From contig CM044956.1 in the NCBI GenBank assembly GCA_024516035.1, positions 9,800,878-9,864,877 on the forward strand: a DNA stretch of 64,000 nucleotides. Reading direction: 5' to 3'. Below the pieces are notes generated by a model. The model saw nothing but the letters and a program-made list of their open reading frames with translations. It was not told the DNA's origin and did no database searches. The position numbers and the translations under genes were made by a program. Shown here in pieces: positions 20,001 through 54,400 of this stretch. The stretch is from Bactericera cockerelli (Eukaryota > Arthropoda > Insecta > Hemiptera > Triozidae). Within the stretch, counting starts at the first letter, position 1. The number at the start of each line of letters is the position of its first letter.

Positions 20001-23000
20001 GATAGTTATTGATACCTAAATCAAGGTGGTGAGAGGATTATATGGACGCCCAGATCCAATGTCTAGGCTCCTTTCATGTCCATTGATTCTAATTGTCTAC
20101 CTCAAGTCAGGACGGGGGTTCTACCCTCCATTCGCTGGGAATCGTACCAACTACCCACATCAACCTCACCCAGCCTGGGTAGGGCCGGAATTGCCAGCCT
20201 CACATGTGCGGAGGGAACAGAATTTTTTTTTGCGAAAAGTCTGCTCCAACCGGGAATCGAACTCAGGATCTCTGAACTACGGGTAGAAGTCGCAACCAAT
20301 ACGCCACGGAGGCACTCTATCAGTATAAACTGTATCAGTATAAACAGAAAAGTGAGAAGTTGTACTAGATGTACATGAATATCAGAACATACCTTGACAG
20401 CTGTTTCGAGCTTATTTGCTCTCATCAGCAGGTAATGAGGTAATAGTTCTCAATGTCCATTTTTTTTTTTTTTTTTTTTTTTTCAATTTCTTTATTTCAA
20501 TTTTGATTTAACATATATACATTCACAGACTGGTCCCTATCTAAAAGATTTTATCCAGCAGTCGACACGGTGTTTCATTGTTTTTTACATAATAAATAGT
20601 TGCGATCAAAATTTTCAAATAGATCACCGAGTCGACTGCTGGACAATGTTCAGCTTATATCTAATTTGTTTGCGTGGACCCACTGTGTGGCTGCGTCGTG
20701 CGCTTCATGTAGGAAGCCTCCACTCAGTGTGTCCACGTTGCCAACTGTTGGTTGGGCCCTGGGTTTTTACAAAATTACTTGTCGGTAAGTAGTATAATTC
20801 ATGTTTTATTTATAGGTCTATATATTTTATTTGTGTATGTATGGCCTAGCTGCTATTTGTTTGGTAAGTTTACTAATTCTTTAGTACATAAGGATTTTTT
20901 CCTGGTAACATTAGTAGCTTGTTATATTGTTTTTTGATCTACTAACCTCTCTATTTCAATCAGTATAAACAGAAAAGTGAGAAGTTTAAACACTTACGCT
21001 TCGTATAGTGGAGACGTTGACGTTGTAGAAGCGGAACAGCTGGACCATGATGGGCGTGTGCTCGGAGGAGATGTCCTGGTAGGCCTTGTTGAGCCAGAGG
21101 CTGGAGGAGCTGACCATGGGGGCCAGCAGGTTGAGGTCCCCGGAGAGGAGATGCTCCTCGCTGTACCAGGTGCCGAACACATCGTACGGCTTGTTCATCA
21201 CGCGACACTGCAGGCTGAACCCGTCTGGGAAATTTGATTTTTTTTTTAGTCCAAGGTCGTTCAAATTCAAGGTCATGTTAGTTCAAGGTTGTTCCATTTC
21301 AAGGTTATTCTAGTTCAAGGTCTCTTTAATTCAGATTTGTTCTATTTAAGGTCATTTTGGTTAAGGTCGTTCTATTTCAAGGTCGGTTAGTTCAAGGTTG
21401 TTCCATTTCAAGGTCGTTCAAATTCAAGGTCTTATTAGTTCAATGTCGTTCTATTTAAGGTCATTTTGGTTAAGGTCGTTCCATTTAAGGGCATTCTAGG
21501 TCGTTCCATTTCAAGGTCATTTCATTTCAAGATTTTTTTCTTGTTCAAGGTCGTTCGATTTCAATGTAATTTTAGTTCAAGGTCATTCAATTTCAAGGTC
21601 GTTCTATTTGAAGGTTTTTTTGTAATTCAAGTTTGTTCCATTCCAGAGGCTGGAGGAGCTGACCATGGGGGCCAGCAGGTTGAGGTCCCCGGAGAGGAGA
21701 TGCTCCTCGCTGTACCAGGTGCCGAACACATCGTACGGCTTGTTCATCACGCGACACTGCAGGCTGAACCCGTCTGGGAAATGGGATTTATTTTTTAGTT
21801 CAAGGTCATTCAATTTCAAGGTCGTTCAAAATTAAGGTCATTTTAGTTCAAGGTTGTTCCGTTTCAAGGTCGTTCAAATTTAAGGTCATGTCAGTTCAAG
21901 GTTGTTCCATTTCAAGGTCTTTCAAATTTAAGTTCATTTTAGTTCAAGGTTGTCCCTAAGGTTTAGTTCAAGGTCCCATTTCAAGGTCGTTCAAATTCAA
22001 CGTCTTATTAGTTCAAAGTCGTTTTATTTAAGGTCATTTTGGTAAAGGTCGTTCCATTTCAAGGTCATTCTAGGTCGTTCCATTTCAAGGTCATTTCATT
22101 CCAAAAAAATTTCTTGTTCAAGGTCGTTCCATTTCAATGTAATTTTAGTTAAAGGTCGTTCCATTTGAAGGTTTTTTGTAATTCAAGTTCGTTCCATTTC
22201 AATGTAATTTTAGTTCAAGGTCATTCAATTTCAAGGTCGTTCCATTTGAAGGTTTTTTTGTAATTCAAGTTCGTTCCATTCCGAGGCTGAAGGAGCTCAC
22301 CATGGGGGCCAGGAGGTTGAGGTCCCCGGAGAGGAGATGCTCCTCGCTGTACCAGGTGCCGAACACATCGTACGGCTTGTTCATCACGCGACACTGCAGG
22401 CTGAACCCGTCTGGGAAATGTGAGTTATTTTTTTAGTTCAAGGTCGTTCAATTTCAAGGTCGTTCAAATTTAAGGTCATGTTGTTAGTTCAAGGTTGTTC
22501 CATTTCAAGGTTATTCTTGTTCAAGGTCTTATTAATTCAGATTTGTTCTATTTAAGGTCATTTTGGTGATGGTCATTCCATTTTAAGGTCGTTCCATTTA
22601 AGGTCATTTTACTTCAGGGTCGTTCCACTTCAAGATCATTATCGGTCGAGGTCCTTCTAGGTCGTTCCATTTCAAGGTCGTTTCATTTCAAGATTTTTTT
22701 CTTGTTCAAAGTCGTTCTATTTCAATGTAATTTTAGTTCAAGGTCATTATATTTCAAGATATTTCTTCTTCAAAATTATTCAATTTCAAGGATGTTCTAT
22801 TTCACACTCAAATTAGTCCAAGGTCATTCAATTGCAAGTTCATTATACGTCAAGGTCGTTTCAATTCAAGGTCATATAAGTCCAAGGTATTTCTATTTCA
22901 AGGTTATTCTAAACAAGGTCACTATCGGTCAAGGTTATATAAATTCAAAGGTCATTTCATTTCAAAGTCGTTCACCGATTATTATTATTTAACAGGTTGA

Positions 23001-26000
23001 GGTCCCCGGAAAGGAGATGCTCCTCGCTGTACCAGGTGCCGAACACATCGTACGGCTTGTTCATCACGCGACACTGCAGGCTGAACCCGTCTGGGAAATG
23101 GGGTTTATTTTTAGTTTAGTTCAATGTTTACCTCCATTTCTGATACACTCGTCAATTCTGGTCGAAAAATTGTCCATGACTTTCTCAAGCATATTCAGGT
23201 GTATTGCACGAATTTCTTGAACAATTAGTCTCTTCAAGTCATCTACAGTCCTTGGCTTATGCATATAGACATTACTTTTGAGGTAACCCCAAAGAAAATA
23301 GTCACAAGCAGAGAGGTCTGGTGAGTTGGCCGCCCAGTCCAGATCGCCGAACTTTCTCTGAGTAATTACCACAGAATCACCACTTTTAAAAAAGTCTCTA
23401 CAACAAAAGCACGATGCGCATGTGTCGACGACTCCATTGTAACTAAATCAGCTTTTATTGGAAACAAAATGACACTAACATCAACCATCTACGACAAGTT
23501 ATGACTTGATAGTTAACATTTTAAACTCGTCAGGTTATTCTGGAGCACCCTGTAGTTCAAGGTCGTTCAATGGCAAGTTCATTATACGTCAAGGTCGTTT
23601 CAATTCAAGGTCATATTAGCCCAAGGTATTTATATTTCAAGGTCATTCTTTTTTTTCAACGTCGTTATAGTTCATGGTCGGTCCATTTCAAGGTCATTGT
23701 ACGTCAAGGTCAAAAGAATTCAAGGTCGTTCAAATTCTAGATCATATTAGTCCAAGGTCGTTCCATTTCAAGGTCACTATGGGTTAAGGTCGTTCAAATT
23801 CAAGGTCATATGAATTCAAAGGTAGTTCCAATTCAAAGTGATATTAGTTCAAGGTCGATCCACTTTAAAGCCATTCTAGGTCAAATTCGTTCTATTAGTT
23901 CAAGGTCATTCCATTTCAAGGTCATTCTACGTCAAGGTCATATTAGTTCAAGGACTTTCCTTATGATAGAATAGAGAAAGTAAAAAATATGTATTCTTCA
24001 TTTTCCCCTGACTCATTTAAATTCGGGGTTCGGTGTTCAAAAAAATGTATTCAAAACATTGTTACAGTTGTTTGTCAGGCATGAGAATATTGTGTCACTT
24101 CTCGCCCACCAGGGGGGAGGCGATGGGCAAGGTACAACACAGACCACAAGCTTCTACAGTAGCTGCTGTTTCATGGCTATAGAAAAAAAGTAACCTGGAG
24201 GTCATTGGTTTCTAATTTGACAGTATAGTAACAAACTTTTTAAAATATAAAAAAAAAACGAGAAAATGAAACAAAACGTGTCTAAAATGGCGAAATCCTG
24301 GCGTGGAGGTCAGTGGTTCAAGTCCCAAATACGCAAGATTTTAGTTAGGCGAGTTTGAGCAATTATAATTAACATAAAATTGAAGAGTTATCGTATTTGT
24401 GTTAATCACTTTCTTGATATCACAGTTACAGTTACTCAAACTAGCTTTACTAAATCTACGCCGAAACCGGAACTTGAACCACCGTCCTCAAGGTTACAAG
24501 TCCACCGCCTTATCGATTATTATTATTAAACATATTAGATCAAGTTTTATTTACATAGAATATTTACATACATAGAAATTGACATTAATAAAACAAAACT
24601 TGATCAAGGACGGTGCGGAAGAGAATGCCGTTGGCATTAACACCGCCCTTGATCAAGTTTTATTTTCTTAATTTCAATATCTACGTATGTATATATTCTA
24701 TGTAATTTGTAAATAAAACTTGATTCAACATGTTTAATAATAACAAAAAGGGCGGTGCTAATGCCAACGGCACTCTTTTCCGCACCACCCATCAAGGTAC
24801 GACCTTGAAATGGAACAACCTTGAACTAACATGACCTTAAATTTGAACGACCTTGAACTTGAAATCATACCTAGCATGGAGAACACGGCGATCTCCCCAC
24901 TGGTAGACTGGGGGGTGCCGAAGTACACTCCCGACACCAGGAGGAGAGTGTCCGTCTCATTGAACTGAGAGTACTGCGTGTACTTCCAGGAGAAGCTCTT
25001 CATGTCGTGCGAGTACTTCACCTTGGCCGGGTAGCTGCTGCTCCACACCTGAGGGAGAATAGAATAGAATAGAATAGAATAGAGTAGAATAGAATAGAGT
25101 AGAATAGAATAGAATAGAATAGAATAGAATAGAATAGAGAAGAGACTAGAATAGAATAGAGTAGAATAGAATAGAATAGAATAGTCTCATTGAACTGAGA
25201 GTACTGCGTGTACTTCCAGGAGAAGCTCTTCATGTCGTGCGAGTACTTCACCTTGGCCGGGTAGCTGCTGCTCCACACCTGAGGGAGAATAGAATAGAAT
25301 AGAATAGAATAGAATAGAATAGAATAGAGTAGAATAGAATAGAATAGTCTCATTGAACTGAGAGTACTGCGTGTACTTCCAGGAGAAGCTCTTCATGTCG
25401 TGCGAGTACTTCACCTTGGCCGGGTAGCTGCTGCTCCACACCTGAGGGAGAATAGAATAGAATAGAATAGAGTAGAATAGAATAGAATAGAGAAGAGACA
25501 GAATAGAATAGAGTAGAATAGAATAGAATAGAATAGAATAGAATAGAATAGTCTCATTGAACTGAGAGTACTGCGTGTACTTCCAGGAGAAGCTCTTCAT
25601 GTCGTGCGAGTACTTCACCTTGGCCGGGTAGCTGCTGCTCCACACCTGAGGGAGAATAGAATAGAATAGAATAGAATAGAGTAGAATAGAATAGAATAGA
25701 ATAGAATAGAATAGAATAGAATAGAATAGAATAGAATAGAATAGAATAGAATAGTCTCATTGAACTGAGAGTACTGCGTGTACTTCCAGGAGAAGCTCTT
25801 CATGTCGTGCGAGTACTTCACCTTGGCCGGGTAGCTGCTGCTCCACACCTGAGGGAGAATAGAATAGAATAGAATAGAATAGAATAGAATAGAATAGAAT
25901 GGAAAGAATAGAATAGAATAAGAATAGTCTCATTGAACTGAGAGTACTGCGTGTACTTCCAGGAGAAGCTCTTCATGTCGTGCGAGTACTTCACCTTGGC

Positions 26001-29000
26001 CGGGTAGCTGCTGCTCCACACCTGAGGGAGAATAGAATAGAATAGAATAGAGTAGAATAGAATAGAATAGAATAGTCTCATTGAACTGAGAGTACTGCGT
26101 GTACTTCCAGGAGAAGCTCTTCATGTCGTGCGAGTACTTCACCTTGGCCGGGTAGCTGCTGCTCCACACCTGAGGGAGAATAGAATAGAATAGAATAGAA
26201 TAGAATAGAATAGAATAGAATAGTCTCATTGAACTGAGAGTACTGCGTGTACTTCCAGGAGAAGCTCTTCATGTCGTGCGAGTACTTCACCTTGGCCGGG
26301 TAGCTGCTGCTCCACACCTGAGGGAGAATAGAATAGAATAGAATAGAATAGAGTAGAATAGAATAGAAATAGAATAGAATAAATAAGAATAGAATAGAAT
26401 AGAATAGTCTCATTGAACTGAGAGTACTGCGTGTACTTCCAGGAGAAGCTCTTCATGTCGTGCGAGTACTTCACCTTGGCCGGGTAGCTGCTGCTCCACA
26501 CCTGAGGGAGAATAGAATAGAATAGAATAGAATAGAATAGATGAATAGAATAGAATAGAATAGAATAGTCTCATTGAACTGAGAGTACTGCGTGTACTTC
26601 CAGGAGAAGCTCTTCATGTCGTGCGAGTACTTCACCTTGGCCGGGTAGCTGCTGCTCCACACCTGAGGGAGAATAGAAGTAGATAGAATAATAATAGAAA
26701 TAGAATAGAATAGAATAGAATAGAATAGAATATGAATGAGATATGGAATAGAATAGAATGAATAGATACTAGGTAGCTGCTTCCAACCTGAGGGAGAATA
26801 TGATAGAATAGAATAGAATAGAATAGAATGAAGAATAGAATAGAATAGAATGAGAATAGAAATAGAATAGAATAGAATGAATAGAGTCTCATTGAACTGA
26901 GATACTGCGTGTACTTCCAGGAGAAGCTCTTCATGTCGTGCGAGTACTTCACCTTGGCCGGGTAGCTGCTGCTCCACACCTGAGGGAGAATAGAATAGAA
27001 TAGAATAGAATAGAATAGAATAGAATAAAGAATAGAATAGAATAGTCTCATTGAACTGAGAGTACTGCGTGTACTTCCAGGAAAGCTCTTCATGTCGTGC
27101 GAGTACTTCACCTTGGCCGGTAGCTGCTGCTCCACACCTGAGGGAGTAATAGAATAGAATAGAGAATAGAATAGAATAAGAAATAGAATAGAATAGATTG
27201 AATGAAGATATGCGATACTTAGAGAAGTATGTTGCAGTAACCTTGAGAGGTAGACTGGATCACACCTAGAAGAGAATAGATAGAATAGAATAGAATAGAA
27301 TAGGTAATAATAGAATAGAATAGAATGAAGTCTCATTGAACTGAGAGTACTGCGTGTAACTTCCAGGAGAAGCTCTTCATGACGTGCGAGTAACTCACCT
27401 TGGCCGGTAGCTGCTGCTCACAACCCGAGGGAGAATAGAATAGAATAGAATAGAATAGAATAGATAGAATAGAATAGAATAGAATGAATAGATAGAATAT
27501 GTCTCATTGACTGAGAGTACTGCGTGTACTTCCAGGAGAAGCTCTTCATGTCGTGCGAGTACTTCACCTTGCCGGTAGCTGCTGCTCCACACCTGAGGGA
27601 GAATAGAATAGAATAGAATAGAATAGAATAGAATAGAATAGAATAGTAGTCATTGAACTGAGATATGTGTACTTAGAGAATTTCATGTGTGGAGTATTCA
27701 CTGAGGGAGCTTGCTCCAATAGGAAAGAATAGAATAAATAGAATAGAATAGAAGTAGAATGAATAGAATAGAATAGAAGAAAGATAGAATAGAATGAATA
27801 GAATAAATAGGATAGATAGAATAGAATAGAATAGAATAGAAAGAATAATAGATAGAGAAAGAATAGAATAGAATAGAAAGTGAATAAAAGTGACTAATAA
27901 TGGAATAGAATCATGAATTAGAGTTTCAGCGGAATCTTCATATTACTTACAATGAACACTGCTACCTAATTAGATTGATTGGGTGGAAGAGATTGTCACA
28001 GGCAATAACCCCGCCCTTTAAGTAGGACATTAGCTTTATTCACTTGTTTGTTCTTGTTTATTTGTTCAATCTATTTATTTTTTCTTTGTAATTTCATTGT
28101 ATTCAACTGTATATTTTGTCTTACCTAATAAAGCATAATATGATAATAATAATAATAATTTATTCTCTTTGATATTAACGTCCTGATTTGATTTATTCAT
28201 ACCCTTCATTTCCAAGGAATCGTACCAGCTACTGCTACCTACATTAACCTCACCCAGCATTAACCTTACGTCGGAAATGACAACCTTACGTGTTGGGAGG
28301 GAACATATTTTTTTTGTTAGAAAATTCTGTTCGACCTGGGATTGAACTCAGGAACTCTGGACTTGACTAGCTATTGGTGTCCCAGCTAATCTGCTGGTCT
28401 ACATTTTTATTAGTCTTCCACCTGAAGTAATGTACTATAGGGTTCCGGGCATGTTTGTGGTGATGGAGAGGAGGGTTTTAGCGGGTATGGCGCACTGTTT
28501 CCAGCGCTGGAACCCCGCACTTCGTCTTGAACCATAGAAGATTTTGCTCCTCTCACAAGAAAAAAAAGAAGCTAGACTGCTTGTCTACTCCTTGCCCGGT
28601 GTCTTAACAACTGTCGGGCATTAAAGAACTCTTATTTTCAAGTAATATCAATAGAAAAATTCTACAACTGTTTCGAAATGAGACGATTTGAGACAAGCAG
28701 AGTAGAGGTATTCGTTGATTTATAAATTAAATAAATGATGCACGATGTTGTTTTCAATCATTGGAATGTATGATTAGAAATTAGAATATATCATGATGAA
28801 CAATAATTGGCATTGAATTCATGCCAAAAATTTGGTTGCACTCTGTTGACAGGTGCATAAAACGTATTTATCTTCAGTTAAAAATAAAGAGGGTAGCAAA
28901 GCACCTACCCTTGGTCAACAGAAAATATGACGTAAAATCAACTTTAATAAATTATTCACTGAGAAAAAATTTCTGGCAAGGGAAGATTCTCTTTTTTCAT

Positions 29001-32000
29001 CTTCAGGGTGTTGGTTCATAACTTGCAAAACATAGAGGATGGATCAACAACTTCAAAAAGAATGTGTTAGGCTGTAGAACGTAAATTATGTAAGTAGATT
29101 CGGAGCATCTAGTGCAGGGTTATCCAAACTGCGGCCCGCTAAGCAAATATTAACATGAGACAACATTAAAAAAAAAAAAATCATCAGATTTGTGTTGATC
29201 ACTTTCGTGATATCACAACTACTCAAACTCGCTCTACTAAATCTACGCTGAAACCGGGACTTGAACCACCGACCTCCAGGTTACAAGTCCGCCGCCTTAT
29301 CGATCAAGCTACTGAGGTCGGTATGAGACAACATTATTACATATTTTAGCATTTAAATATACATTCTTGTATGTCTGCTATACGTACATGATATAAAATA
29401 AAATTTGAATTTTACAAAAAATACATTAATAAAACCAGGTGGATAAAGGTTACTGATATTTTTTTTTTTATATATAACTAAAACCCCTAGAGTGGTAAGT
29501 TTTAACAGTTTACTATGTTACACTATTTACCATATTTAAATAAACCACCATGATAAAATGATCATGAAAAATGACGTTAAGAAGATATTTTCAATTTTAG
29601 TCACTTTTTTGGGATCAACTAAAAAAAAAAAAAAACTAGCTGACTGCAATACTATCTAAACTCATAACCTTTAAGTTAATTTTGGATAATTTTAATTAAA
29701 CTGTTCGTAAGTCGTATCCTTATTTATATATTTATAAAATAATATAGACCTAAATGAATACGACTTCCGGATGAATTGCGGAAATAATAAATCAAACTCT
29801 CCCAACCTCTGAAAAATTGGAAGAAATCTTTTACTTGTAAGATGTTCTTAATAATAAAAAAAAACATGTTATAATGTAAAAAAAAATCAATACAAAATTG
29901 GTGATACTCACTCATAAGTTAAGAGCGCGTTAAAGTACGCACGAAGGGTTTTACAATTTGAATTATAGGGTAGCCCTCAAAGGTAGCCTTGAGATACGAT
30001 CGAGCTCAAAATATTTTTCGCGCCATCGTCTGAATTGACAATATGTCAAAATTTCAGCTATTATGACTTGTGACAGACAGCGTACGGCGTACGGCAAAGG
30101 GCTCGTTAATAGGGTTTTTTTTTTCATATGAACAAAACTTTGAGGTTTAATAAGTAGAATACGAATATGAGTTACGAGTGATAAAAAAACGCAAAACTTT
30201 TTGTACCTCAGATGTTATTTTATATTTATAAAATGCCCTTTAGAAATTAAAGAATCTTTCAGCATTGAGGCCTTGGTTTTTTTAGGACGGCTTGTGTTCT
30301 TAGCAATGTCTGGGGGGATTCTTTGGGCGAGGTACACTTTTTCCAACTAGCTGTGTCATTGTTACCCATCAGTTTCTTTTCCTTGCACAAGAGTAGCAGG
30401 CATTCCTAGTGTGGACCACTAGAGAGCTCCACTCTTCAACAGGAAGAGTAAGGCGGGAGCACTAGAGAGCAAGTCCTGGAGTTCTAGATTCTTCCCATCC
30501 TCCACTCTTCAACAGGAAGAGTAAGGAGGGAGCACTAGAGAGCATGTCCTGGAGTTCTAGATTCTTCCCATCCTCCACTCTTCAACAGGAAGAGTAAGGA
30601 GGGAGCACTAGAGAGGAAGTCCTGGAGTTCTAGATTCTTCCCATCCTCCACTCTTCAACAGGAAGAGTAAGGAGGGAGCACTAGAGAGCAATTCCTGGAG
30701 TTCTAGATTCTTCCCATCCTCCACTCTTCAACAGGAAGAGTAAGGAGGGAGCACTAGAGAGCAAGTCCTGGAGTTCTAGATTCTTCCCATCCTCCACTCT
30801 TCAACAGGAAGAGTAAGGAGGGAGCACTAGAGAGCAAGTCCTGGAGATCTAGATTCTTCCCATCCTCCACTCTTCAACAGGAAGAGTAAGGAGGGAGCAC
30901 TAGAGAGCAAGTCCTGGAGTTCTAGATTCTTCCCATCCTCCACTCTTCAACAGGAAGAGTAAGGAGGGAGCACTAGAGAGCAAGTCCTGGAGATCTAGAT
31001 TCTTCCCATCCTCCACTCTTCAACAGGAAGAGTAAGGAGGGAGCACTAGAGAGCAAGTCCTGGAGATCTAGATTCTTCCCATCCTCCACTCTTTAACAGG
31101 AAGAGTAAGGAGGGAGCACTAGAGAGCAAGTCCTGGAGTTCTAGATTCTTCCCATCCTCCACTCTTCAACAGGAAGAGTAAGGAGGGAGCACTAGAGAGC
31201 AAGTCCTGGAGTTCTAGATTCTTCCCATCCTCCACTCTTCAACAGGAAGAGTAAGGAGGGAGCACTAGAGAGCAAGTCCTGGAGATCTAGATTCTTCCCA
31301 TCCTCCACTCTTCAACAGACAACATTATTACATATTTTATGAGACAACATTATTACATATTTTAGCATTTAAATATACATTCTTGTATGTCTGCTATACG
31401 TACATGATATAAAATAAAATTTGAATTTTACAAAAAATACATTAATAAAACCAGGTGGATAAAGGTTACTGATATTTTTTTTTTATATATAACTAAAACC
31501 CCTAGAGTGGTAAGTTTTAACAGTTTACTATGTTACACTATTTACCATATTTAAATAAACCACCATGATAAAATGATCATGAAAAATGACGTTAAGAAGA
31601 TATTTTCAATTTTAGTCACTTTTTTGGGATCAACTAAAAAAAAAAAAAACTAGCTGACTGCAATACTATCTAAACTCATAACCTTTAAGTTAATTTTGGA
31701 TAATTTTAATTAAACTGTTCGTAAGTCGTATCCTTATTTATATATTTATAAAATAATATAGACCTAAATGAATACGACTTCCGGATGAATTGCGGAAATA
31801 ATAAATCAAACTCTCCCAACCTCTGAAAAATTGGAAGAAATCTTTTACTTGTAAGATGTTCTTAATAATAAAAAAAAACATGTTATAATGTAAAAAAAAT
31901 CAATACAAAATTGGTGATACTCACTCATAAGTTAAGAGCGCGTTAAAGTACGCACGAAGGGTTTTACAATTTGAATTATAGGGTAGCCCTCAAAGGTAGC

Positions 32001-38844: not shown

Positions 38845-38969
38845 GCTGGCCGCTGGGGACTGGAATAGAAATAAAAAGCATTATGCTTAAAGGGTTGTTA
38901 AAAAATGAATTATGTAAGATATTGTTGATGAAATATTGTGAATATTAAATAAATAATGAAAAAAAAAAA

Positions 38970-39720
38970 AAAAAATAGCATCTAGACAGGTACTGGAACA
39001 TGTAAAGCAGGATGGTGTCCGCTACAGTCCATGCTGGCCGCTGGGGACTGGAATAGAAATAAATGGAATAGCATCTAGATAGGTACTGGAACATGCTGGC
39101 CGCTGGGGACTGGAATAGAAATAAATGGAATAGCATCTAGATAGGTACTGGAACATGCTGGCCGCTGGGGACTGGAATAGAAATAAATGGAATAGCATCT
39201 AGATAGGTACTGGAATATGCTGGCCGCTGGGGACTGGAATAGAAATAAATGGAATAGCATCTAGATAGGTACTGGAACATGCTGGCCGCTGGGGACTGGA
39301 ATAGAAATAAATGGAATAGCATCTAGATAGGTACTGGAACATGCTGGCCGCTGGGGACTGGAATAGAAATAAATGGAATAGCATCTAGATAGGTACTGGA
39401 ATATGCTGGCCGCTGGGGACTGGAATAGAAATAAATGGAATAGCATCTAGATAGGTACTGGAACATGCTGGCCGCTGGGGACTGGAATAGAAATAAATGG
39501 AATAGCATCTAGATAGGTACTGGAATATGCTGGCCGCTGGGGACTGGAATAGAAATAAATGGAATAGCATCTAGATAGCTACTGGAACATGCTGGCCGCT
39601 GGGGACTGGAATAGAAATAAATGGAATAGCATATAGATAGCTACTGGAACATTTGTGGAACAGGATGGTGTCTGCTACAGTCCATGCTGGCCGCTGGGGT
39701 CTGAAATAGAATGGATTCCG
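38970..39720 (-). repeat. 62-bp minisatellite built from the FBXW5 exon 1 acceptor and start
   Basis: About ten tandem 62-bp units run from 39069 to 39640. On the minus strand each contains TTTCTATTCCAG (acceptor), TCCCCAGCGGCCAGCATG (5' UTR and start codon) and TTCCAGTACCT from inside exon 1. Longer, less deleted exon copies flank the array at both ends (38985-39055 and 39645-39705). They keep ATGGACTGTAGC and GGACACCATCCTGC, so the 62-bp unit looks like an internally deleted exon copy that was then amplified. Confidence 0.94.
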
Positions 39721-40270
39721 AGACCGTGAAGTAGGCATAAAAAAAAACACGTTATCTTTTCGCTGGCTGAAAGTAATAATAATAATAATAATATCGCCTT
39801 ATTTATACTGCCCGATTAGGACTATTACAGTCCCATTATTCCAGCAGTAAGCCCAAGACATATTATTATGTGGTAAAAATCCTAAATGGGAGGATAACTT
39901 GTCATGTCCCGGCTGGGTTTTGAACCCGCGACTTCTGGAAAATCTGGATTCAAAGAGTGCCGCCTTTACCACTGAGCTACCGGGACAGACTCGGAAACTA
40001 ACTTTACCATTACTTAACACTCTGCCGCGCTGTCTCTTTCTTTGTTCGTTCTTCACACCTTGGTCGAGGTGTTTGACAAGGTGTTGAGAGTATTATATGG
40101 ACGCCCAAAACCAATGTCTAGACGCTCCTTTCATTTCCATTGATTCTATTTGGATTTAAGCTATTCCATACGGTGGTTTCAGTTATTTACCCTCCCACCA
40201 CTGGGAATCATACGAGCTACACACACTAACATCACCCAGTCGGAGTTCTGATGATGATAATAATGTAATC
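39720..40270. mobile_element. SINE-C (39779-39988) and SINE-A fragment (about 40080-40255)
   Basis: SINE-C is on the minus strand. Its head TGTCCCGGTAGCTCAGTGGT ends at 39988, the tail CTGCCCGATTAGGACTATTA lies at 39805, and it borders an ATA microsatellite. The following piece (ATATGGACGCCCA, TTTCATTTCCATTGATTC) is the SINE-A tail variant seen at 20040. Confidence 0.75.
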
Positions 40271-43056: not shown

Positions 43057-43483
43057 ACTTCCCACTGGTGTTATATATATATCTCCCTTGCCTTTATCCC
43101 ATATTAGCTTATGTTGCTTTTGGGGTCGGCGTTGTTCAACCTCATGGTTGAGGTTGGTAGAGTGGAGCACGTTTTTTTTATGGCTGGATGCCCTTCCTAA
43201 CGCCAACGATTCTACTTGATTTAACATCCTGGATTAGGACGGGGGTTTTACCCTCCATTCGCTGGGAATCGTACCAGCTACCCACATTAACCTCACCCAA
43301 TGGAAATGGCAGCCTCACCTCGGAAATGGCAGCCTCACGTGTTTGGATGGAACAGAATTTTCTTCGAAAAGTCTGCCCCAGCCGGGAGTTGAACTCGGGA
43401 ACTCTGGACTACGGGCAGTAGTCACAACCATTACGCCACGGAGGCTGCTTACGCCACGGAGGCTGCTACTTCCCACTGGTGTT
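43057..43483 (-). mobile_element. SINE-A with 16-bp target-site duplication
   Basis: ACTTCCCACTGGTGTT is repeated exactly at 43057-43072 and 43468-43483. Between them is a minus-strand SINE-A whose first 20 bases (GCAGCCTCCGTGGCGTAA) are doubled at the head. The host sequence is an older element containing GTGTTGAATGTGTTGATCAA segments (42915, 43480, 43880). Confidence 0.93.
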
Positions 43484-44241
43484 GAATGTGTTAATCAAAA
43501 TATTGATCAACAATTCTGCCTACAATGTGGGCATGTTTTATATTTAGGTGGTGCGTTGATTAATTATCAATATTGTTGAACACCAGTGGGGGCACACATT
43601 TAAAGAAACCCAATAAAATTTCTCAATAAAATCACCACTAGTACAACTGGGAAATATCCAGAATCTCCTCAGACAACAATTTTGTCTTGCTGTTGTAGCA
43701 GCAGCAGTTGGAATAATATCTTACTCACTCATTTAGAAATTATTGATAGTTATTTCAAAATGAAAATAAAATTAAACAATAAATTTGTGCATAGCAACAA
43801 ACATAGAAGGTACACACACCAAATTTGGAAAACTTTATGATTAATATTGTTGGTTTCTACATTGAAAACTTAGGTGGGGATCAACATTGTTGATCAATAT
43901 GTTGAACATCAGTGGGGATATGGCATATTGTTATAAGAATTTGATAAAAATAAAGGAACTTGTCATTGCTAAGACAATCACCCAAGGTATTCTGCATAGC
44001 TTAACCAAATGCAAAATCTCTCTTTACCTATAATAAAGTAATTTAATTGGTAAAATAATCAATTTTTCACAGGGCTGAGGGCAGAATTAATGAATGTTTT
44101 TGTAATACCTCTGTGGCACTAAGTCATGGTTTGCATACTGTGTAAGATAGGGAAAACCAACACTTAGCAGTGATTTGTGATGTAGAATTTGTCTATAAAT
44201 TGAATTTGTCTATTTTTTTGGCCCTGACTCATTTTCTTATA
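43484..44241. other. Intergenic AT-rich DNA with fragments of a GTTGATCAA element
   Basis: Pieces reading CAGTGGGG..GTTGAACATATTGATCAACA occur in both directions (43484-43600, 43875-43925). No gene is seen. Confidence 0.45.
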
Positions 44242-44604
44242 ACAGCCTCCGTGGCGTAACGGTTGTGACTACTGCCCGTAGTCCAGAGTTCCCGAGTTCA
44301 ACTCCCAGCTGGGGCAGACTTTTCGAAGAAAATTCTGTTCCATCCAAACACGTGAGGCTGGCATTTCCGGCCCTACCCAGGCTGGGTGAGGTTAATGTGG
44401 GTAGCTGGTACGATTCCCAGCGAATGGAGGGTACAACCCCCGTCCTAATCCAGGACGTTAAATCAAATAGAATCGTTGGCGTTAGGAAGGGCATTCAGCC
44501 GTAAAAAATGTGCCAAAACCAATCAACCTCAACCATGAGGTTGAACAACGTCGACCCTGCTTGAGCGGGATAAGACAGAATAAAAGAAGAATCATTTTCT
44601 TATA
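44229..44604 (+). mobile_element. SINE-A full copy with 13-bp target-site duplication
   Basis: TCATTTTCTTATA is repeated at 44229-44241 and 44592-44604. The element (44242-44591) has the head GCCTCCGTGGCGTAACGGTT, B box, body and the 3' end CTTGAGCGGGATAAGACAGA, then AATAAAAGAAGAA. Confidence 0.92.
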
Positions 44605-45457
44605 GGTATCATTCCAAGCATTTTGTGAAAGTTGTATAAAAATTGGTCCAGAGGTGTCTTGAATTAATGAGATACCTATAAAATTAATATTAAAATTTTA
44701 CCTATGATTTTTTACTTACCTCTATTCACAACTTGTTGTCTTTAGGTAGATTGTTATCAAAAGCATAATATCACAAGTAGGATAGTTAAGACTTGAGTGA
44801 GGAGTAAAACCTTTTCATGTTTTTTTTTAAGTTTCACTATTTTGTGACATCAAATCTCATTACATTAATGAGTCAAATATTAATCTAGGGAACTGCCCCC
44901 GTAAGCGTAAAGTTCTGTATTCTAATTAATTTACCTTAAAAATTAATTTAATGCTTATCACTCACAACGTACACTTGTGTGGAGTAAAAATAGAAAATGT
45001 ATTTTTTTTTTTTTAAAACATTAGATTAATTTGAATGTTCCTGAAGCTATTATCGCTGCTGAAAAAAATAGCAAGAATTCTACAGGGTACGGCGAAATCT
45101 TGTACTCTTCATTGTCTCAAATAAATTACCAAGGAAAAGGGATTAAAACTAGTTACGGGAATTATTACTATAGTATTATTTTTTCCCCCGAGTTATATAT
45201 AGTTCTCCTACTTTCCGTTCGGATATTTTAGCGCTGATTGGCGATTGTTTAAATAATTTTGATGGTGTCATATTTTAATTAAAATCAAATTTTATTATAC
45301 ATTTTGAAACGGAACAGCAGGAACATAATTTACATGTTTGGGCTATAAGCCATTCAAATTTGACATTTTGTAGTATCTATCCCTCATATTGCAAGTTAGG
45401 TAGTCACCTTTTACTTTAAAAGTTATTGGTACACTGTAGCCTATTCCAGAAACACTT
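44605..45457. other. Intergenic AT-rich DNA, nothing recognised
   Basis: No coding sequence, tRNA-like head or inverted repeat was seen. Confidence 0.4.
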
Positions 45458-46039
45458 GCCGTATTTTTCTTTCTAACCAAAGTTAACCAAACGGGAATAA
45501 AATGAACCAAACTGGAAGCAAGTCATTTTTCTTTTGGAAGAGGAAAAATTTCCACTTCCAAAGTTAACCAAAGTGGAAGTAGAAAATTCTTGCTTCCAGT
45601 TCTTTTATAGGTTAAGCTCATTGTTTATCTTTAAAAGTAACCAAACGCATTTTTCTTTCACGAATGACCTTGGAATAAAATGGAAATATTTGGAAAAAAC
45701 CTAACCAGGAATTTTTTTTTAGTTAGAAAGAAAAATACTACTACTCTCCACTCTTAAGTCGTATTTTTCTTTCTAACCAAAAAAATTCCTGGTTAGGTTT
45801 CTTCCAAATATTTCCATTTTATTCCAAGGTCATTCGTAAAAGAAAAATGAGTTTGGTTACTTTTAAAGATAAACAATGGACTTAACCTATAAAAGAACTG
45901 GAAGCAAGAATTTTCCACTTCCACCTTGGTTAACTTTGGAAGTGGAAATTTTTCCTCTTCCAAAAGAAAAATGACTTGCTTCCAGATTGGTTCATTTTAT
46001 TCCCGTTTGGTTAACTTTGGTTAGAAAGAAAAATACGGC
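45458..46039. mobile_element. 582-bp foldback element (arms ~285 bp, near-perfect)
   Basis: The left end GCCGTATTTTTCTTTCTAAC and right end GTTAGAAAGAAAAATACGGC are exact reverse complements. Complementarity continues through AACCAAACGGGAATAAAATG, GGAAGAGGAAAAATTTCCAC and CTTGGAATAAAATGGAAATA to a centre of about 25 bases (near 45742-45768). Only scattered differences occur. No open frame; no clear target-site duplication. Confidence 0.92.
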
Positions 46040-46072
46040 ATTTGATTATTGCGTTAAAATTAACCAACCAGA

Positions 46073-46300
46073 GTGCGTTGTGTGACAGTTTTTTTTTATT
46101 ATTATTTTTTTTTTCAAGATAAGTGTGCCCCGGAAACGCTTTCGCCTAACTTCAGGGCACTTTACCTTTACATCCATGCCATTCCGGAAACGGAAATTTT
46201 TCGGTCAGAAATTTTCCGCTCCGGCCGGGATTTGAACTTGCAACCTCCGGATCAGTAACCAATGCTCTTAACCACTGAGCCACGGAAGTCGGCACATCTT
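46073..46300 (-). mobile_element. SINE-F (tRNA-derived)
   Basis: The minus-strand head GACTTCCGTGGCTCAGTGGT (A box) is followed by AAGTTCAAATCCCGGCCG (B box) and a body whose plus-strand form holds CTTTCGCCTAACTTCAGGGC. It ends in a run of AAAAAA. Confidence 0.78.
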
Positions 46301-48283
46301 AGGAGATGCAGCGAAGGTGTTTCACACAATCTGTGACAGTTAAAAGGGAGATTTGGAGAATATGAGAGTGGAGAGTGTTTCTCTGGAACGGACTATACTC
46401 TGGTTGGTACCACAAAAAATAGAAAAATAATTTACCAAGTGCTCAAAAGGACGCAGAAAGAGAACCAATCAGAAGCTATGTATGGGTGGTGTGTGTGTGT
46501 ATGTATGTATGTATGTGTGGGTGGGTCTGTGTGTGTACAGTGTAATGACTAGGAAAAGCCAGTGAAGCCCGCTAATGAGAAATAAAAATAATCGTGGGAT
46601 TTTTTCTAATTGATGGTAATGTTCGTTTTTTGAACACTGTTGAAAAAACGAATTGGTTGCTTCAAATTGTTGTTTGTTTCTCTACACTCTAACTCACTGC
46701 ATTTAAATTTTAAATTATAACTTCTTGACTTTAGTTTACACTTTTAATTACTTTTAAATAGTTTGCCTATTACAAGTTATAAGTTTATGTGTAAAAATTG
46801 GTTAATTTTTCACCAAGATCCATCTTTCAGTGTTTTGTGATCACCACCATTAGAAAATCTATTATTGATTGAGCTGTCAGCTTTATGTATTAACTACATT
46901 GAATCAGTGATGGGTCACAATCAGAAGAAAACACCTATTGAATTGTCTACAATTCCAGGAGCTGTAGAAACCCCAACCCTCTTTCTTATTTAATCAAGTG
47001 TTTATCATTTGACTGAAATTTAATCTGGGACTGAAACAAACCTTGAAAAATTAAAATCCTCATTGAAAAAACTATGAAAAATTTCATCTTTCTCTAATAA
47101 TATTATGTATGAGACTGTACACCAAACTGATGACAGTGATGGCATGAGAAACTTGAAAACCCCAAATTTTAGGTAGGTACTTTTACACACTTACATTTGG
47201 CTATTGTTGGTACTGAAATTGGTGAACTATCTTATTTTAATCAGTGTAATGCTCTGGAGACTTGATGGATCTTCAACAAGTAAAAGCAGATGAATCACAG
47301 TTTTTAATATTAACTGGATCACAGTTCTATTTGAACAGAATGTATCTCACGCTGATACAGTTATTTAAAAGAAAATAGCTTTATACAAACCCTGCCTAAG
47401 AAGAAAATATCATATTGAACGTGAAAATATTAAAGTGGAGTTGGCCCATCATGTTATGATCCAATGGCCATTTTTGAACCAATTCTTACAATATTTCACA
47501 GAATGATAGGTGTAAGAAAATGATTTAGACCTAAAAATGAATATGAACTTATTTAAATTACTCAAATAAAGTAAAATAAAAAAATATTGCAAGAGGTTAA
47601 ACTGTGTTGTGTAGCAACCCTATCTAACCCTGCATTAATTTTCACTCTGGCAAACCTAAGCTAAAACCATGATAATTTTGATATATTAAAGTAAACTGTT
47701 TTTTTTTATAGTTAGAATGGCAAATGAAATTCTTTAATTTATATATATTGTATTTCACCCATTATTTATTTTATTTGATTATTATCATTCTTCTTCTATC
47801 ACCTTCTTAACAGTGTATTATAATGTAATTGGGTGTATGTCAAATTTCATTGTAATTGACATACATCTGTTTTGTATTGCACTTAAAAATAAATAAATAA
47901 ATTAAATTAAAAAAAATAAAAAATCAATGAACCATCCTACCAAACAAGCATTTGTCAGTGCTCTAATTATTATTATTATATTACTCTTTATTAGGTAAGG
48001 ACAAAGTACATTATTTACAGAACAATACAATAGATTGGCTAAAGAAATAAGAACAAAAAAAAGAGAGAATAAAGCTAATGTCCTACCCAAAGGGCAGGGT
48101 TATTGTCTGTGGCAATCTCTTCCACCCAACCCTTTTGAAAGCCCAATGAAAATAATGTAAGAGATAGAAGAAGAAGAAAAACAAAACATATAATAGAGAA
48201 TAGAAAACATAAAAAATAACAATAAAGAGATCTAATGTGTAATTTCTGACCTTGTTAACTTTACTCAACCTCTTATTTTCCAG
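46301..48283. other. Intergenic DNA with GT microsatellite and one repeat; no gene seen
   Basis: 46487-46543 is GT/GTAT-rich. 47965-48135 (minus) is the relative of the element at 27985 (CAATAACCCTGCCCTTTGGG on the minus strand). The rest is AT-rich. The FBXO42 promoter and any 5' UTR exon should lie here, but I cannot point to them. Confidence 0.5.
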
Positions 48284-48494
48284 TCAAAAAGAGAAAACAA
48301 AATGAATAAAGTAATGCTCTATTCATGTTAATCCTATGAGATGGAGAAGGAAAACAGTACAACATCAAACTTTGAAGCAAGTTTGTTGGATTTGCCAGAT
48401 GAGGTGATTCAATATATTCTGAGACTGTTACCTCCATACAATGATCTGAAGGCATGTATGCAAGTATGCAAGAGGTTGTATACAAATGCACAAA
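48284..48494 (+). CDS. Fbxo42: FBXO42 exon with start codon and F-box
   Basis: The acceptor TTATTTTCCAG ends at 48283, so a 5' UTR exon lies upstream. The ATG at 48341 opens MEKENSTTSNFEASLLDLPD, EVIQYILRLLPPYNDLKACM, QVCKRLYTNAQ. The F-box LPDEVIQYILRLLPPYNDLK resembles human [20 protein letters not shown]. The donor AAA/GTAAGT leaves phase 1. Unlike the later exons it is AT-rich. Confidence 0.9.
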
Positions 48495-51400
48495 GTAAGT
48501 TATGACTATAATATTAGTATTAAAAAAATAAGTAAGTACCTACTAAAATGGTAAGTAAAATAGTAATGGTAAGTTAAAAATAGGTAAGTACCTACCTACG
48601 CCAGGCATTCTCTAAGGCAGAGAATGGTTAAGGCATTAACTTTACCCCGGATTACAAAACAATTGTAATTATAAATAAATAATGTTCTCTATTTTTTTCT
48701 ACATATTTCTAAGTTTCTTTTTAAATTTATTGTTATTAATTGTTAAAAATTAACTGTTGTTGATTGTTTTCTAAAAAAAAAAAAAAAAAAAAAGTGTAAA
48801 AAAATAAAATAATAAGTAGGATATCTATAAAATGAAGCTGTCTGTATATTTTTTTATACAAATCTGCACTATTTGACCAAGAAGAAATTCTCCACTTAGG
48901 TCCCACTGGAACAGGAAATTCTTCTGGGCTTAGTTATATCTCTCTAGGGTTAAGCTACACTGAGTAAGGACTAAAAATCGATGGGTGTCACAAAAATATT
49001 TTTTTCTCTTCTAAATGACATTTTTTTCTTGAAATTTGTTGTCACTACCTATCAACTCAAAGCAAGAAAGTTTTAGTCAAGGGTTTGAGCAAATCCATTT
49101 GACACATCAATTGCTAGATACAAAAAATATTTACTTTTTTTTTTACTTAAATGAGATTTTCTGTGTCTGTGTGGTATGTGATTGTGGTGTGGTGTGGTGT
49201 GATGGGCTGGGCTGGCAAAGCAGTTGATGTAACCCAATAGTAATCTACCTAATAAAACATAAATGGTCTAGGGTATTGAGAGAGTATAAAGTTGAAAAAA
49301 AAAGTTATTATACTTGTCCCAATCACCCTTGTGATATCACAACCAAATCCTCGAAATCAGAACTTTCTGAGAGAATTATGGTAATATGTTTAGGTACCTA
49401 ATATAAATTGGAAAAACTTAGAGTGTTGAAAAATATGGTCTCCCCTTTTTTTAACAAGAAAACTAGTCATTGAAAAGAATGCTGCAGAATATTGAAACAT
49501 CCATGCAGCATGTGTGTGTTAGTAAACAACTCTCAATAGTGAGAGTTAGTTTCCTCTTATTTTTGATATTATGTTCCAGGTGTACTAAACTATACCCACC
49601 TATCATTGAGTCGGGCAATCAGTGAGTGTAACATTGAGTGGAGTCAGGAATATGGAGACTCTTCCATTACTAGCCGTTACTCACACTCAGCATGTTATCA
49701 TGGTAACTCTATCTTTATTTTACATAACTTACTTACTTTCCATGTTCAGACCACCAAATTTTCAGACTTGGCTCATCCAGTATGTTGCTAGAGCCACAGC
49801 CTTGGCATTCTGTAAATCAAGATCTTCTTTTGAACATACATCAGTTGGGGTTGGGCACAAAAGAAAATGATCATTGTTTGAGATTGCCCCTATCCAATTT
49901 CAAGCTTCTAGTATGCTATGACATAATCCTTATCTGGGTGGGATTCGAACCAACGAATCCCTACACTACCTGGATTACCAGACTAGCGCGTTAACCACTT
50001 GACTACCATGGCAGAGTTATGGATAAGCTACACTATAAACCAGCAGCTTCTATAATAGCTTTTATTTTATGGTTACAAAATTAAAAAGACTGAAACATTA
50101 TTTTTTGCTTAGACATGTTCATCAACCCTGTATGTCGGTCTATCTTCTTTTCTTTTAACTACCATTATTTCTACTATTGTTATATTATCTTCCACTATTA
50201 TTTCCTTATCTTGTTTTCTATTATCTTTACTCTCTAATTGTTATTTTATTTACATTGTGTTTATTCTCAACTCAAATAAATAAAGAGGTGCTTTGTTAAA
50301 CTGTTGGCATAATGGGACTACCTGTCTTGCGCTTACAGTCTAAATAAAGCACTACTTATACTGTCTGTCCCGGTAGCTCAGTGGTAAAGGCGGCACTCTG
50401 TGAATCCACAGGTTTCAGAGGTTGTGGGTTTGAAACCCAGCTGGGACATGACAAGTTATCCTCCCATTTGGGATTTTTACCACATAATAATATGTATGTA
50501 CGATTTTTTTTTTCTTTGTGGTGAAGCACAAGGCCTCTTCACAATTTTTGTGGGTAGCGCAGCATTACTAAGAGCCTCCTTTACATTTCGAATTATTCTA
50601 TCACATTAATTTCTTTTTACTCTGGTAATGCCGCCACGGGTCGTTACTCATATAAGTAACTAGGTACTCATTTTTCCTCACGAGGTATGAGTGGACCCCG
50701 AACATCCAAGTACAGAGCAGAAAAATTACTGCCCCGCTAGAGATCGAACCCAGGTCACCGTGCGTGCAATGCCCAGCGCGCTAACTCACTCTGCGACGGT
50801 GACTACACATAATAATATGTCTTGGGCCTACTGCTGGAATAATGGGACTTTAATAGTCCTAATCGGGCAGTATAAATAAGGCGATATTATTATTATTTTC
50901 CTAGAAGAACAGTACATTTTACAAACCATGATGCTGGCCTGTCCTCAGAGAACAACATGTACATCTTCGGCGGGTGCAGCTTCTCCTCGACCACGTTCAA
51001 TGACCTCTGGCGGCTCGACCTCTCCACCCGGCGCTGGCACCGCCTCAGCTCGGGCGGCCAGTACCCCTCGCCCAAGGCCTCCGCCACTCTGCTGGCGTAC
51101 CGCGACCAGCTGGTCCTCTTCGGGGGGCTCACCCAGCCCTCGCCCTACCCTGCCAACCAGACGCGCGTCTTCAACGAGCTGCACATCTACAGCATCTGTG
51201 AGTTACTGCCTTAATTCCCCACCTTCAGCACAAGATTTTTATCTTTTGAAGGTGGGTATACCCTCATGGTTTGTTGAAGATGATAATGTATAAAAAATAA
51301 ATAAATGGAAACTTCAAAAAAAAAAAAAAAAAAAAATTAATTTAATTTTACTTTACTTTATTGGGACGTTTTAAGCATTAAACACAATTTACAATGAACA

Positions 51401-54400
51401 TTGTATAATTTACCTATCTATCTTAAGAAATAATTATTGTAACTAAATCTAATTATAATAATAATAAAAAGTAAAAAAAAGAGTTTTAAGACTAGAATGG
51501 AAGGTTAGAAGTTTTGAGAATTTTAGGAATTTAGCTAGAACAGCTCTTAACGGCTTCAGAAAAGCTTTGAAGGCTCATGGATAGGTCTAGCTGGCCTTGA
51601 GAAAGATATCTGTGAGTTACTGCCTTGAGCAAGATATCTGTGAGTTACTGCCTTGAGGCAAGATATCTGTGAGTTACTGCCTTGAGGCAAGATATCTGTG
51701 AGTTACTGCCTTGAGGCAAGATATCTGTGAGTTACTGCGAATGGATTGTAAAAACCCCATTGAGAATGACCTAGAATACCTAGATGATGTTTCTCTCTAA
51801 CATTTGTAATTTGTAATTTATTTGCATTAATAATTGTACATAATAGGTAACATATATTGAATGCGACTACCTCACACTACGGGGATGCAGTCCTCTTGTT
51901 TTGTTGGCTAGCTAGCTAACCCTATCAACTTCACCCAGCCTTTTCCAATCCATAAGTGTTTTACAGCCAGAAAAGAGCAGATACAGTAGACATTTGTGGT
52001 CTGTGTTGTAGCTCGCACGTAGTATGCCTCTCCTCTAATGGGCGAGAATTGACACAGTTCTTCCCGTGTAGATGCTAGGTCAACACGAGCGCACCTTCAC
52101 AAACAACAGTATCTAAATTTTGAATACATTTTTTCTGTCGGCTCTGCGATTCAAACCCGAGACCTTCCGCACGGCAAGTGAGTATCCTACCACTGGGTTA
52201 ATCTTACGCTAGTTTGGTTTCATTAATAGAAAAATGTTTTTTAGTTTGGTTAATTGTCATTAAAAGAGAAAAATTACCTAGTTTTGTTTATTGTCATTAA
52301 TAGAAAATTGTTTTTTTTTTAGTTTGGTTAATTGTCATTAAAAGAGAAAAATATAGTTTTGTTTATTGTCATTAATAGAAAATTGTTTTTTTTTAGTTAG
52401 GTTAATTGTCATTAAAAGAGAAAAATATAGTTTTGTTTATTGTCATTAATAGAAAAATGTTTTTTTAGATTGGTTGATTGTAATTAAAAGAGAAAAAATA
52501 GTTTGATTTATTGTCATTAAAAGAGAAAAATATAGTTTGATTTACTGTCATTAATAGAAAACTGTTTTTCGTTTCAGCCCAGAACACGTGGCGCTGTGTG
52601 GAGACCCCCTCCCCCCCTCCACCGCTCGCCTTCCACTCAGTCTCCCTGCACGATGACGTCATGATAGTGTTCGGGGAGCCACGGCCAACAACGTGGGAAC
52701 CAATGATGTGTGGAGTCTGGACCTGACGAGGCTGGAGTGGACCAAGCGGCACACGAGTGACGTGAAGCCTTCACCCAGGCGAGTAGCTCAGTTTATTATT
52801 ATATATTTATTATTATGCAGTATTACAGGGGTGCCCAACCTTTACAGAAGAAGATCTACTATCTCATCTGTCTGGACGTGATCGACCCAAAATCACTCCG
52901 GGATCGACCGGTCGATCGCGATCGACTGGTTGGGCAGCCCTGCAGTATTATAATGACAGTAAGTTTATTATTTTACAGTTTATTATTATATTGTACCATT
53001 TAAATATAGGTACATTCTTGTATGTGTGCTGTCAATCAAGTACAAATTATACAGGAGTATGTGGCACAAAGTCAAAATTTAATTTCTTAATGAATAACAA
53101 GCTCATTTAAAAGCTCAACTTTTGAAAAACGGACTTTTTGAATAGCGCATAATCGAAATGAGCCTGTGATTGGTAACCATGCAAAATTTCAGCTCTTACA
53201 GTTCTCGAGTTTTAAGAGGATAATTATTTATTTTTTGGTTTTGGCTGAACAATTAAACATAACAAAAAAATGACGATAGTCAGTAAAAATAATTTTAAAA
53301 GGTGGAACTAAACCGTGACATTTTCTTAAATTTTGTTAAGTGCTTTTCTCAGACCGTACACTACGTGCATCTCGAATTTAATTAAAAATTTACAAAACAA
53401 CAGATTTGTAGAAAATTGGTTACATAAGTGGTTTCATAATTGAACCACATAATAATTAAAAATGGAACCAAAATAACTGATTAAGCTAATAAACTGTTGA
53501 CCTCCCACAGGTTCTAGTCAGATCTACATTGACCTAATGAACTGTTGACTCCCGCAGGTACTGTTCTAGTCAGATCTACATTGACCTAATGAACCTGTTG
53601 ACCTCCAGCGACCAGGTACTGCTCTAGTCAGATCTACATTGACCTAATGAACTGTTGACCTCCCGCAGGTACTGTCTAGTCAGATCTACATTGACCTAAT
53701 GAACTGTTGACCTCCCGCAGGTACTGTTCTAGTCAGATCTACATTGACCTAATGAACTGTTGACCTCCCGCAGGTACTGTTCTAGTCAGATCTACATTGA
53801 CCTAATGAACTGTTGACCTCCCGCAGGTACTGTTCTAGTCAGATCTACATTGACCTAATGAACTGTTGACTCCCGCAGGTACTGTTCTAGTCAGATCTAC
53901 ATTGACCTAATGAACTGTTGACTCCCGCAGGTACTGTTCTAGTCAGATCTACATTGACCTAATGAACTGTTGACCTCCCGCAGGTACTGTTCTAGTCAGA
54001 TCTACATTGACCTAATGAACTGTTGACTCCCGCAGGTACTGTTCTAGTCAGATCTACATTGACCTAATGAAACTGTTGACTCCCGCAGGTACTGTTCTAG
54101 TCAGATCTACATTGACCTAATGAACTGTTGACTCCCGCAGGTACTGTTCTAGTCAGATCTACATTGACCTAATGAACTGTTGACTCCCGCAGGTACTGTT
54201 CTAGTCAGATCTACATTGACCTAATGAACTGTTGACTCCCGCAGGTACTGTTCTAGTCAGATCTACATTGACCTAATGAACTGTTGACTCCCGCAGGTAC
54301 TGTTCTAGTCAGATCTACATTGACCTAATGAACTGTTGACCTCCCGCAGGTACTGTTCTAGTCAGATCTACATGACGGCTGCACGTGCTGGACTGGTGCT

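Follow-up and report, generated by a model that had tools for sequence, protein, structure and literature searches.

How does the edge of an exon, together with its splice site, come to be repeated many times in the intron beside it? The question is raised by a 64-kb window (the whole stretch of DNA analyzed, 64,000 nucleotides; assembly GCA_024516035.1, contig CM044956.1, positions 9,800,878 to 9,864,877) of the psyllid Bactericera cockerelli, in which two F-box genes lie head to head, FBXW5 on the minus strand and FBXO42 on the plus strand. A first-pass annotation of the window reported that five exon edges of these genes are copied in neighboring introns and knew of no established name for such structures. 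The copies at all five edges are real. Structures of this kind have already been described in lancelets, where they are called mirages (PMC3087553, PMC3902484), and as far as our searches go, it is the insect host that is new.

Five exon edges are copied in the adjoining introns

Each of the 20 modeled exon edges was scanned for its best ungapped match within 6 kb, with the match crossing the exon-intron junction by at least 4 nt on each side, and scores of at least 14 were reported. Six of the 20 edges reached that level, and the remaining 14 scored 5 to 13. The best scores were 44 at the FBXW5 exon A acceptor (11 matches), 117 at the exon C acceptor, 92 at the exon D acceptor (3 matches), 19 at the FBXO42 exon 3 donor (5 matches), and 84 at the FBXO42 exon 5 acceptor. 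The sixth edge, the FBXO42 exon 4 acceptor, scored 22 because a 74-bp array of intron sequence abuts it (52220 to 52558, plus strand); its exon side is without a match, and it has no real exon content. Both edge types are thus copied, four as acceptors and one as a donor, as the first-pass annotation had it. Its further statements that the copies lie in the intron adjoining their own exon and that the two unrelated genes hold five distinct units were borne out by unit-to-edge matches, the intron being presumed in the case of exon A. We conclude that exon-edge copying occurs at five edges in two genes.

Each of these arrays consists of one recurrent unit that joins an exon fragment to intron sequence, and the splice site is kept in most copies. 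Exact decoy acceptor motifs were found in 12 of the 14 copies at exon C, in 10 copies at exon A (plus a flanking copy, P1, in which the AG is kept and its context is changed), in all three copies at exon D, and in 14 copies at FBXO42 exon 5, plus one that has diverged; decoy donor motifs were found in 5 of 5 copies at FBXO42 exon 3. Summed over these motif counts, the decoy splice sites of the five cases number about 46, and most differ little or not at all from the authentic sites. The unit junction reads AG/GT (the slash marks the splice junction) in the copies of exon C and FBXO42 exon 5 and does not in those of exons A and D. The copied exon pieces at exons A, C, and D and at FBXO42 exon 5 end before the other edge of the exon is reached, and tandem duplication of a whole exon with both of its splice sites was found at none of the five edges. 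Moreover, a scan of the gene strand for strong donors (MAGGTRAG) returned one site in the exon C array and none in the exon A, exon D, and FBXO42 exon 5 arrays.

Chance matches are ruled out by exact or near-exact identity over 19 to 140 nt. The units each match the edge of their own exon, and on this ground a single ancestral repeat common to all arrays is likewise rejected, as is a transposable element carrying splice sites, the latter with no repeat-library search made.

Each array keeps a record of its edge

The exon A array retains intermediates. Exon A (38640 to 38859, minus strand) holds the start codon and the F-box, and its putative acceptor would lie 15 nt before the ATG, with the sequence beyond presumed to be intron. 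Ten units of 62 bp lie at 39030 to 39652 on the minus strand, each comprising the TATTCCAG acceptor, 15 nt of 5′ untranslated region, and the ATG, which is ATA in three units. Read at a fixed period, the 10 units differ by six substitutions and no insertions or deletions (indels); alignment of the units, which trims end mismatches, gives three. The array is flanked by two partial copies of exon A on the same strand, P2 on the exon side (38985 to 39052) and P1 on the far side (39642 to 39711), and both carry an identical 29-bp internal deletion relative to exon A. The start of the 62-bp unit corresponds to a P2-like copy that lacks the 31 bp between two CATG motifs, with one further base different. 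A stepwise order can be read from the sequence, from the exon to a longer copy, to a trimmed unit, and to a putative tenfold amplification, because the deletion in P1 and P2 and the CATG-bounded loss form a nested series.

The exon C array is compound. Exon C lies at 24871 to 25048 on the minus strand, and copying involves its first 95 nt. The array (25056 to 27911, minus strand) contains 14 copies besides the exon, each composed of (TATTC)n, a CCCTCAG acceptor, and the start of exon C, such that the pyrimidine tract of these acceptors is the TATTC microsatellite itself. Nine copies are identical to the edge over 102 nt (95 exon, 7 intron), and the five distal copies carry 0 to 3 substitutions and 1 to 23 deletions each. 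The copies are spaced 148 to 318 bp apart, and most of these distances are not divisible by three. At both exon A and exon C, the inner units are alike and the boundary units have diverged; many of the distal differences at exon C are deletions, which could reflect errors in the reads.

Copies of the exon D edge (exon at 20998 to 21224, minus strand) are serial rather than tightly tandem. Three copies, at 21643 to 21782, 22281 to 22419, and 22993 to 23099, lie within an interval (21236 to 23120, minus strand) of 16-bp TTCAAGGTCR minisatellite and are spaced by 549, 638, and 679 bp. Over the 107 to 140 nt around the edge, they differ from exon D by 0, 3, and 1 substitutions and one deletion. 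Exon D with its flank is 84% identical to copy 1 with its flank over 578 columns, copy 1 is 77% identical to copy 2 over 648 columns, and copy 3 can be aligned to copy 2 across no more than 134 columns. The TTCAAGGTCR minisatellite itself extends over 21252 to 23953, with a short inverted piece beside the exon C donor (24799 to 24863), and we presume a likeness of its motif to orphan nuclear receptor half-sites.

Two further cases are found in FBXO42. Exon 5 (54350 to 55066, plus strand) is preceded by an array of 52/53-bp units (53486 to 54349, plus strand) comprising CTAAT, which we take to be a branch-site-like motif, a CCCGCAG acceptor, and the start of exon 5. Its 16 copies differ by 1 substitution versus 14 inserted or deleted bases, six of which are an identical extra C. 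Exon 3 (50949 to 51197, plus strand) is the source of the copied donor, and five 29-bp units at 51594 to 51738 on the plus strand contain the donor ATCT/GTGAGTTACTGCCTT, 19 nt of which are common to the exon 3 donor. Those 19 nt comprise only 4 exon and 15 intron nt, and the array starts about 400 bp from the exon. We regard the donor case as marginal.

Arrays lie almost wholly in the genic part of the window

The edge-containing arrays are part of a larger population. When 110 rows of Tandem Repeats Finder output were grouped by hand, they resolved into 10 arrays and one 2-kb duplication, and five arrays near the copied edges, with units of 42, 73, 202, 25, and 74 bp, have no exon content. 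Array coverage was computed from 20 intervals, with the genic regions 5055 to 38639 and 48495 to 54349 compared to the regions 39721 to 48340 and 55067 to 64000. The fraction of sequence in arrays is 0.683 for the FBXW5 introns, or 0.507 once the 42-bp array is excluded, and 0.272 for the FBXO42 introns. It falls to 0.006 in the 8.6-kb stretch separating the two genes and to 0.0 both in the 8.9 kb past FBXO42 and in the window's first 4.9 kb; nine short rows (<50 bp each) were omitted and would bring these last values to about 1.5% at the most. The confinement of arrays to genic sequence within the window is, like the insect host, new. In this one window, it may be due to regional chance, selection, or a transcription-linked process, and it may matter more than the count of edges.

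The largest array, of 42-bp units, covers 13.2 kb of the FBXW5 intron after exon D (6725 to 19974). On the gene strand, it contains 116 GTAAGT and 167 GTAGGT, or hundreds of donor-like motifs. The array and the exon D donor have a 13-mer in common, a length reached by 0.1% of 2,000 random 40-mers and by 1 of 24 GTAAGT-centered 40-mers, a set that includes the exon D donor itself. Given that 20 edges could be set against about 10 arrays, the match is suggestive only and was not counted as a further donor case.

The remaining arrays described here also consist of intron sequence alone. Two near-identical blocks at 29320 to 33706 each end in a 73-bp array, of 12 and 17 copies, and align over 1,106 bp with 0 substitutions and 3 deletions. 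The 73-bp arrays contain 9 and 15 substitutions and no indels, and their first 12 units have matching per-unit difference counts. The pair reflects either recent duplication or the joining of two haplotypes during assembly. A 25-bp array of about 50 copies lies at 34599 to 35976.

Local duplication in repeat-rich introns probably accounts for the copies

We propose that the arrays are mirage-type minisatellites that arose in introns rich in repeats, through tandem duplication nearby and unequal exchange, and whose copies are tolerated, a reading to which we assign a probability of roughly three in four. A local tandem duplication with one breakpoint in the exon and the other in the adjoining intron would copy a single edge with its splice site, short deletions would trim some of the copies, and unequal exchange or slippage would multiply and homogenize the unit. 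Exon edges would be swept into a general process of intron repeats rather than targeted, because the introns are largely tandem repeat in any case. Only single-edge units would be expected to survive, as a duplication that stays within an exon, or takes in an entire exon, changes the protein. In exon definition, an acceptor is paired with a nearby downstream donor, which would leave only the last acceptor copy usable; the copies may be tolerated because each holds one edge without a partner splice site. The first-pass annotation had named slippage at GC/AT borders and R-loop repair as candidate processes, and no result favors either over tandem duplication, no direct test of either having been made.

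Whether exon edges exceed control sites, as the first-pass annotation anticipated, depends on what is counted within the window. A local match score of at least 14 was obtained at 0.68 of 250 random points in genic noncoding DNA (0.552 of 250 when the 42-bp array is left out) and at 0.108 of 250 random intergenic points, and the edges (6 of 20, five with exon content) fall below the genic background because the introns are so full of arrays. The excess failed when points were counted and held when arrays were counted. For the latter count, each array was collapsed to one unit, leaving 17,990 bp of genic DNA with 20 edges.

Several observations weigh against the duplication reading. Five of 11 events contained an edge when 1.81 were expected (P = 0.008); five of 10 did so without the 2-kb duplication (1.14 expected; P = 0.0011), and with the exon D unit taken as 140 bp, the expectation was 0.82 (P = 0.0004). 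Moreover, all 10 arrays are genic (P = 0.0011 or 0.0003 for uniform placement at collapsed length, depending on whether the first 4.9 kb counts as outside, and with the exon A array counted as genic in a presumed 5′ intron), which would not be predicted for a purely random process, and one strong donor-like site lies inside the exon C array. The event excess, the restriction of arrays to the genic part, and the recurrence in two genes with differing units would all be expected if exon edges were true hotspots of a process tied to splice sites, to GC/AT borders, or to transcription through R-loops or template switching. The excess is no more than a hint, because the arrays were grouped by hand and the window was picked for its striking look, and the test was post hoc. 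When the marginal donor case is dropped to leave four events, the P values become 0.055, 0.011, and 0.0047, and a binomial test on edges gives P = 0.014 for 5 of 20, or 0.13 with the 2-kb duplication counted (for 6 of 20, P = 0.0027 and 0.047). Half of the arrays contain no edge, and 14 of the 20 edges have no reportable match. Point and event counts disagree, targeting of exon edges is not demonstrated, and we consider hotspots unlikely. A broader version, that a transcription- or splicing-linked process in psyllids amplifies intron DNA with a preference for splice-site units, fills introns and not intergenic DNA, and yields AG/GT arrays that would offer a series of recursive or dual-specific sites, making accidental decoy use self-correcting and array growth harmless, is a speculation that we would hold at long odds.

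Some features of the arrays could instead point to misassembly of noisy long reads as the source of the arrays or of most copies. Deletions account for most of the differences in the five distal exon C copies, the 52-bp array has many more indel bases than substitutions, FBXO42 exons 4 and 5 carry frame-breaking indels, and the blocks between 29.3 and 33.7 kb combine an absence of substitutions over about 1.1 kb with a per-unit pattern common to the first 12 units of the 73-bp arrays. Against this, all variation in the 62-bp array and the two 73-bp arrays consists of substitutions (6, 9, and 15), and six of the indels in the 52-bp array are one extra C, partly in neighboring units, which looks like a shared variant. 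In addition, the exon D units are 77 to 84% alike over hundreds of bases, and P1 and P2 carry diverged, nested histories. Read noise does not easily create such variation, so errors plausibly change copy number and not the existence of the arrays, which makes an artifactual origin distinctly improbable; the copy numbers themselves are uncertain, given the indel errors that the assembly seems to contain. The idea that the arrays are used, with AG/GT units kept by selection as dual-specific or recursive splice sites or as regulatory decoys, is the hardest to credit. The junctions at exon C and FBXO42 exon 5 do carry the motif at the core of dual-specific sites, and introns situated inside tandem repeats of human genes are enriched in such sites (PMC10809524). 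The donor halves, GTGTGG and GTACTG, look weak by eye against the textbook consensus, the exon A and D copies lack the motif, and the exon C spacings mostly do not preserve a multiple of three. We conclude that duplication and exchange within repeat-rich introns probably produced the copies, with exon edges caught up in the process.

Gene models and other features of the window

Exon models were built from splice sites and reading frame and then compared with the proteins of relatives. FBXW5 encodes F-box and WD40 domains (Pfam) and is 58 to 62% identical to four insect relatives, including three hemipterans; no psyllid FBXW5 relative was named among the 120 proteins listed. Exons A to D, including exon B (36776 to 36933, minus strand; splice sites and frame), read through as a single open frame, 256 codons long, in which the modeled junctions have GT-AG borders, and the exon D model is supported by splice sites, frame, and relatives. 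Exons E (5964 to 6142) and F (4927 to 5054), both on the minus strand, are less certain, with splice motifs and weaker similarity.

FBXO42 encodes F-box and Kelch domains (Pfam) and has five coding exons inside the window, all on the plus strand. Among named relatives, the best matches are to F-box only protein 42 from two psyllids, Diaphorina citri (64% identity across 75% of the query) and Cacopsylla melanoneura (53% across 100%); identity to other hemipterans is near 40%. Exons 1 (48341 to 48494) and 2 (49580 to 49702) were modeled from splice sites and frame, and the start of exon 3 was shifted to 50949, behind TGTCCTCAG, by alignment to relatives. Exon 4 (52578 to 52778) has a GC donor at 52778, CAG/GCGAGT, consistent with the reading phase of relatives, and its frame is broken in a way that a single base could account for. 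In exon 5, the last coding exon, the frame is broken just after the array, where 41 nt stand against 17 residues (about 51 nt by hand count) in relatives. The frame breaks in exons 4 and 5 would be consensus errors of a noisy assembly. Relatives' proteins are uninterrupted at the FBXW5 exon C and D junctions and at the FBXO42 exon 3/4 junctions, a comparison of proteins and not of introns.

Outside the two genes, remains of a non-long terminal repeat (non-LTR) retrotransposon lie at 497 to 1657 and 2257 to 4047 on the minus strand and include an endonuclease domain (PF14529) and a 596-residue open reading frame (ORF) that has no Pfam hit and by eye resembles a zinc-knuckle gag. A 203-residue ORF (59057 to 59665, minus strand) is weakly similar to the Tc5 transposase DNA-binding domain, just below the curated cutoff. 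An ORF at 62521 to 62913 on the minus strand has C2H2 zinc-finger matches, with PF13909 above the cutoff, and is possibly a further gene.

Comparison with known systems

Splice sites within tandem repeats are known from several systems. Dual-specific AG/GT sites occur in the tandem repeats of UBC (PMC10809524), and AG/GT likewise stands at the unit junctions of two of the four acceptor arrays here. The UBC units are coding and stochastically spliced (PMC10809524), whereas the units here are intronic and known from sequence alone. In human segmental-duplication genes, variable minisatellites occur at exon-intron boundaries and are associated with longer exons or introns or with novel introns in recent paralogues (PMC2812944), whereas the proteins modeled here are as in relatives except for the broken stretches of FBXO42. 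In potato, a tandem duplication crossing a boundary of an RNA-dependent RNA polymerase (RdRp) gene was the source of a new intron (PMC4974935); there, too, the duplication crosses the intron/exon boundary with an acceptor and its signals, whereas in our gene models the copies lie within an old intron and no new one has formed. If psyllid introns are commonly built like these, they would hold many intermediates for intron gain by boundary duplication.

The closest likeness is to the mirages of lancelets, minisatellite-like tandem duplications of exon/intron boundaries that were named in Adh3 (PMC3087553). Units are 10 to 72 bp in Adh3, 150 to 160 bp in the globin gene BflGb6, and 157 bp in BflGb9 (PMC3087553), and PGBD5, with units of 60 to 108 bp, and troponin C provide further cases (PMC3902484). 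In the lancelet arrays, as here, tandem units span a boundary at either edge, and many copies, though not all, keep their splice signals; the lancelet arrays also have homogenized inner units, a pattern that may hold here too (PMC3087553, PMC3902484). The lancelet arrays are unstable in length, with BflGb6 haplotypes of 6 and 3 units, and Adh3 data together with reverse transcription-PCR (RT-PCR) of globins suggest that regular splicing is undisturbed (PMC3087553). Such RT-PCR and haplotype data distinguish the lancelet work from ours, which reads the genome only. The B. cockerelli arrays differ in having one case spaced at about 550 to 680 bp and one that is compounded with a microsatellite serving as pyrimidine tract. 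In the papers cited here, mirages are reported from lancelets alone. No insect or hemipteran counterpart was found among the matches listed, from mostly freely accessible literature, which is not proof of absence. The roughly 46 decoys offer a natural test of how the spliceosome chooses among equal acceptors, only one of which has a partner donor. With five cases in two adjacent genes, mirages are extended from lancelets to an insect host.

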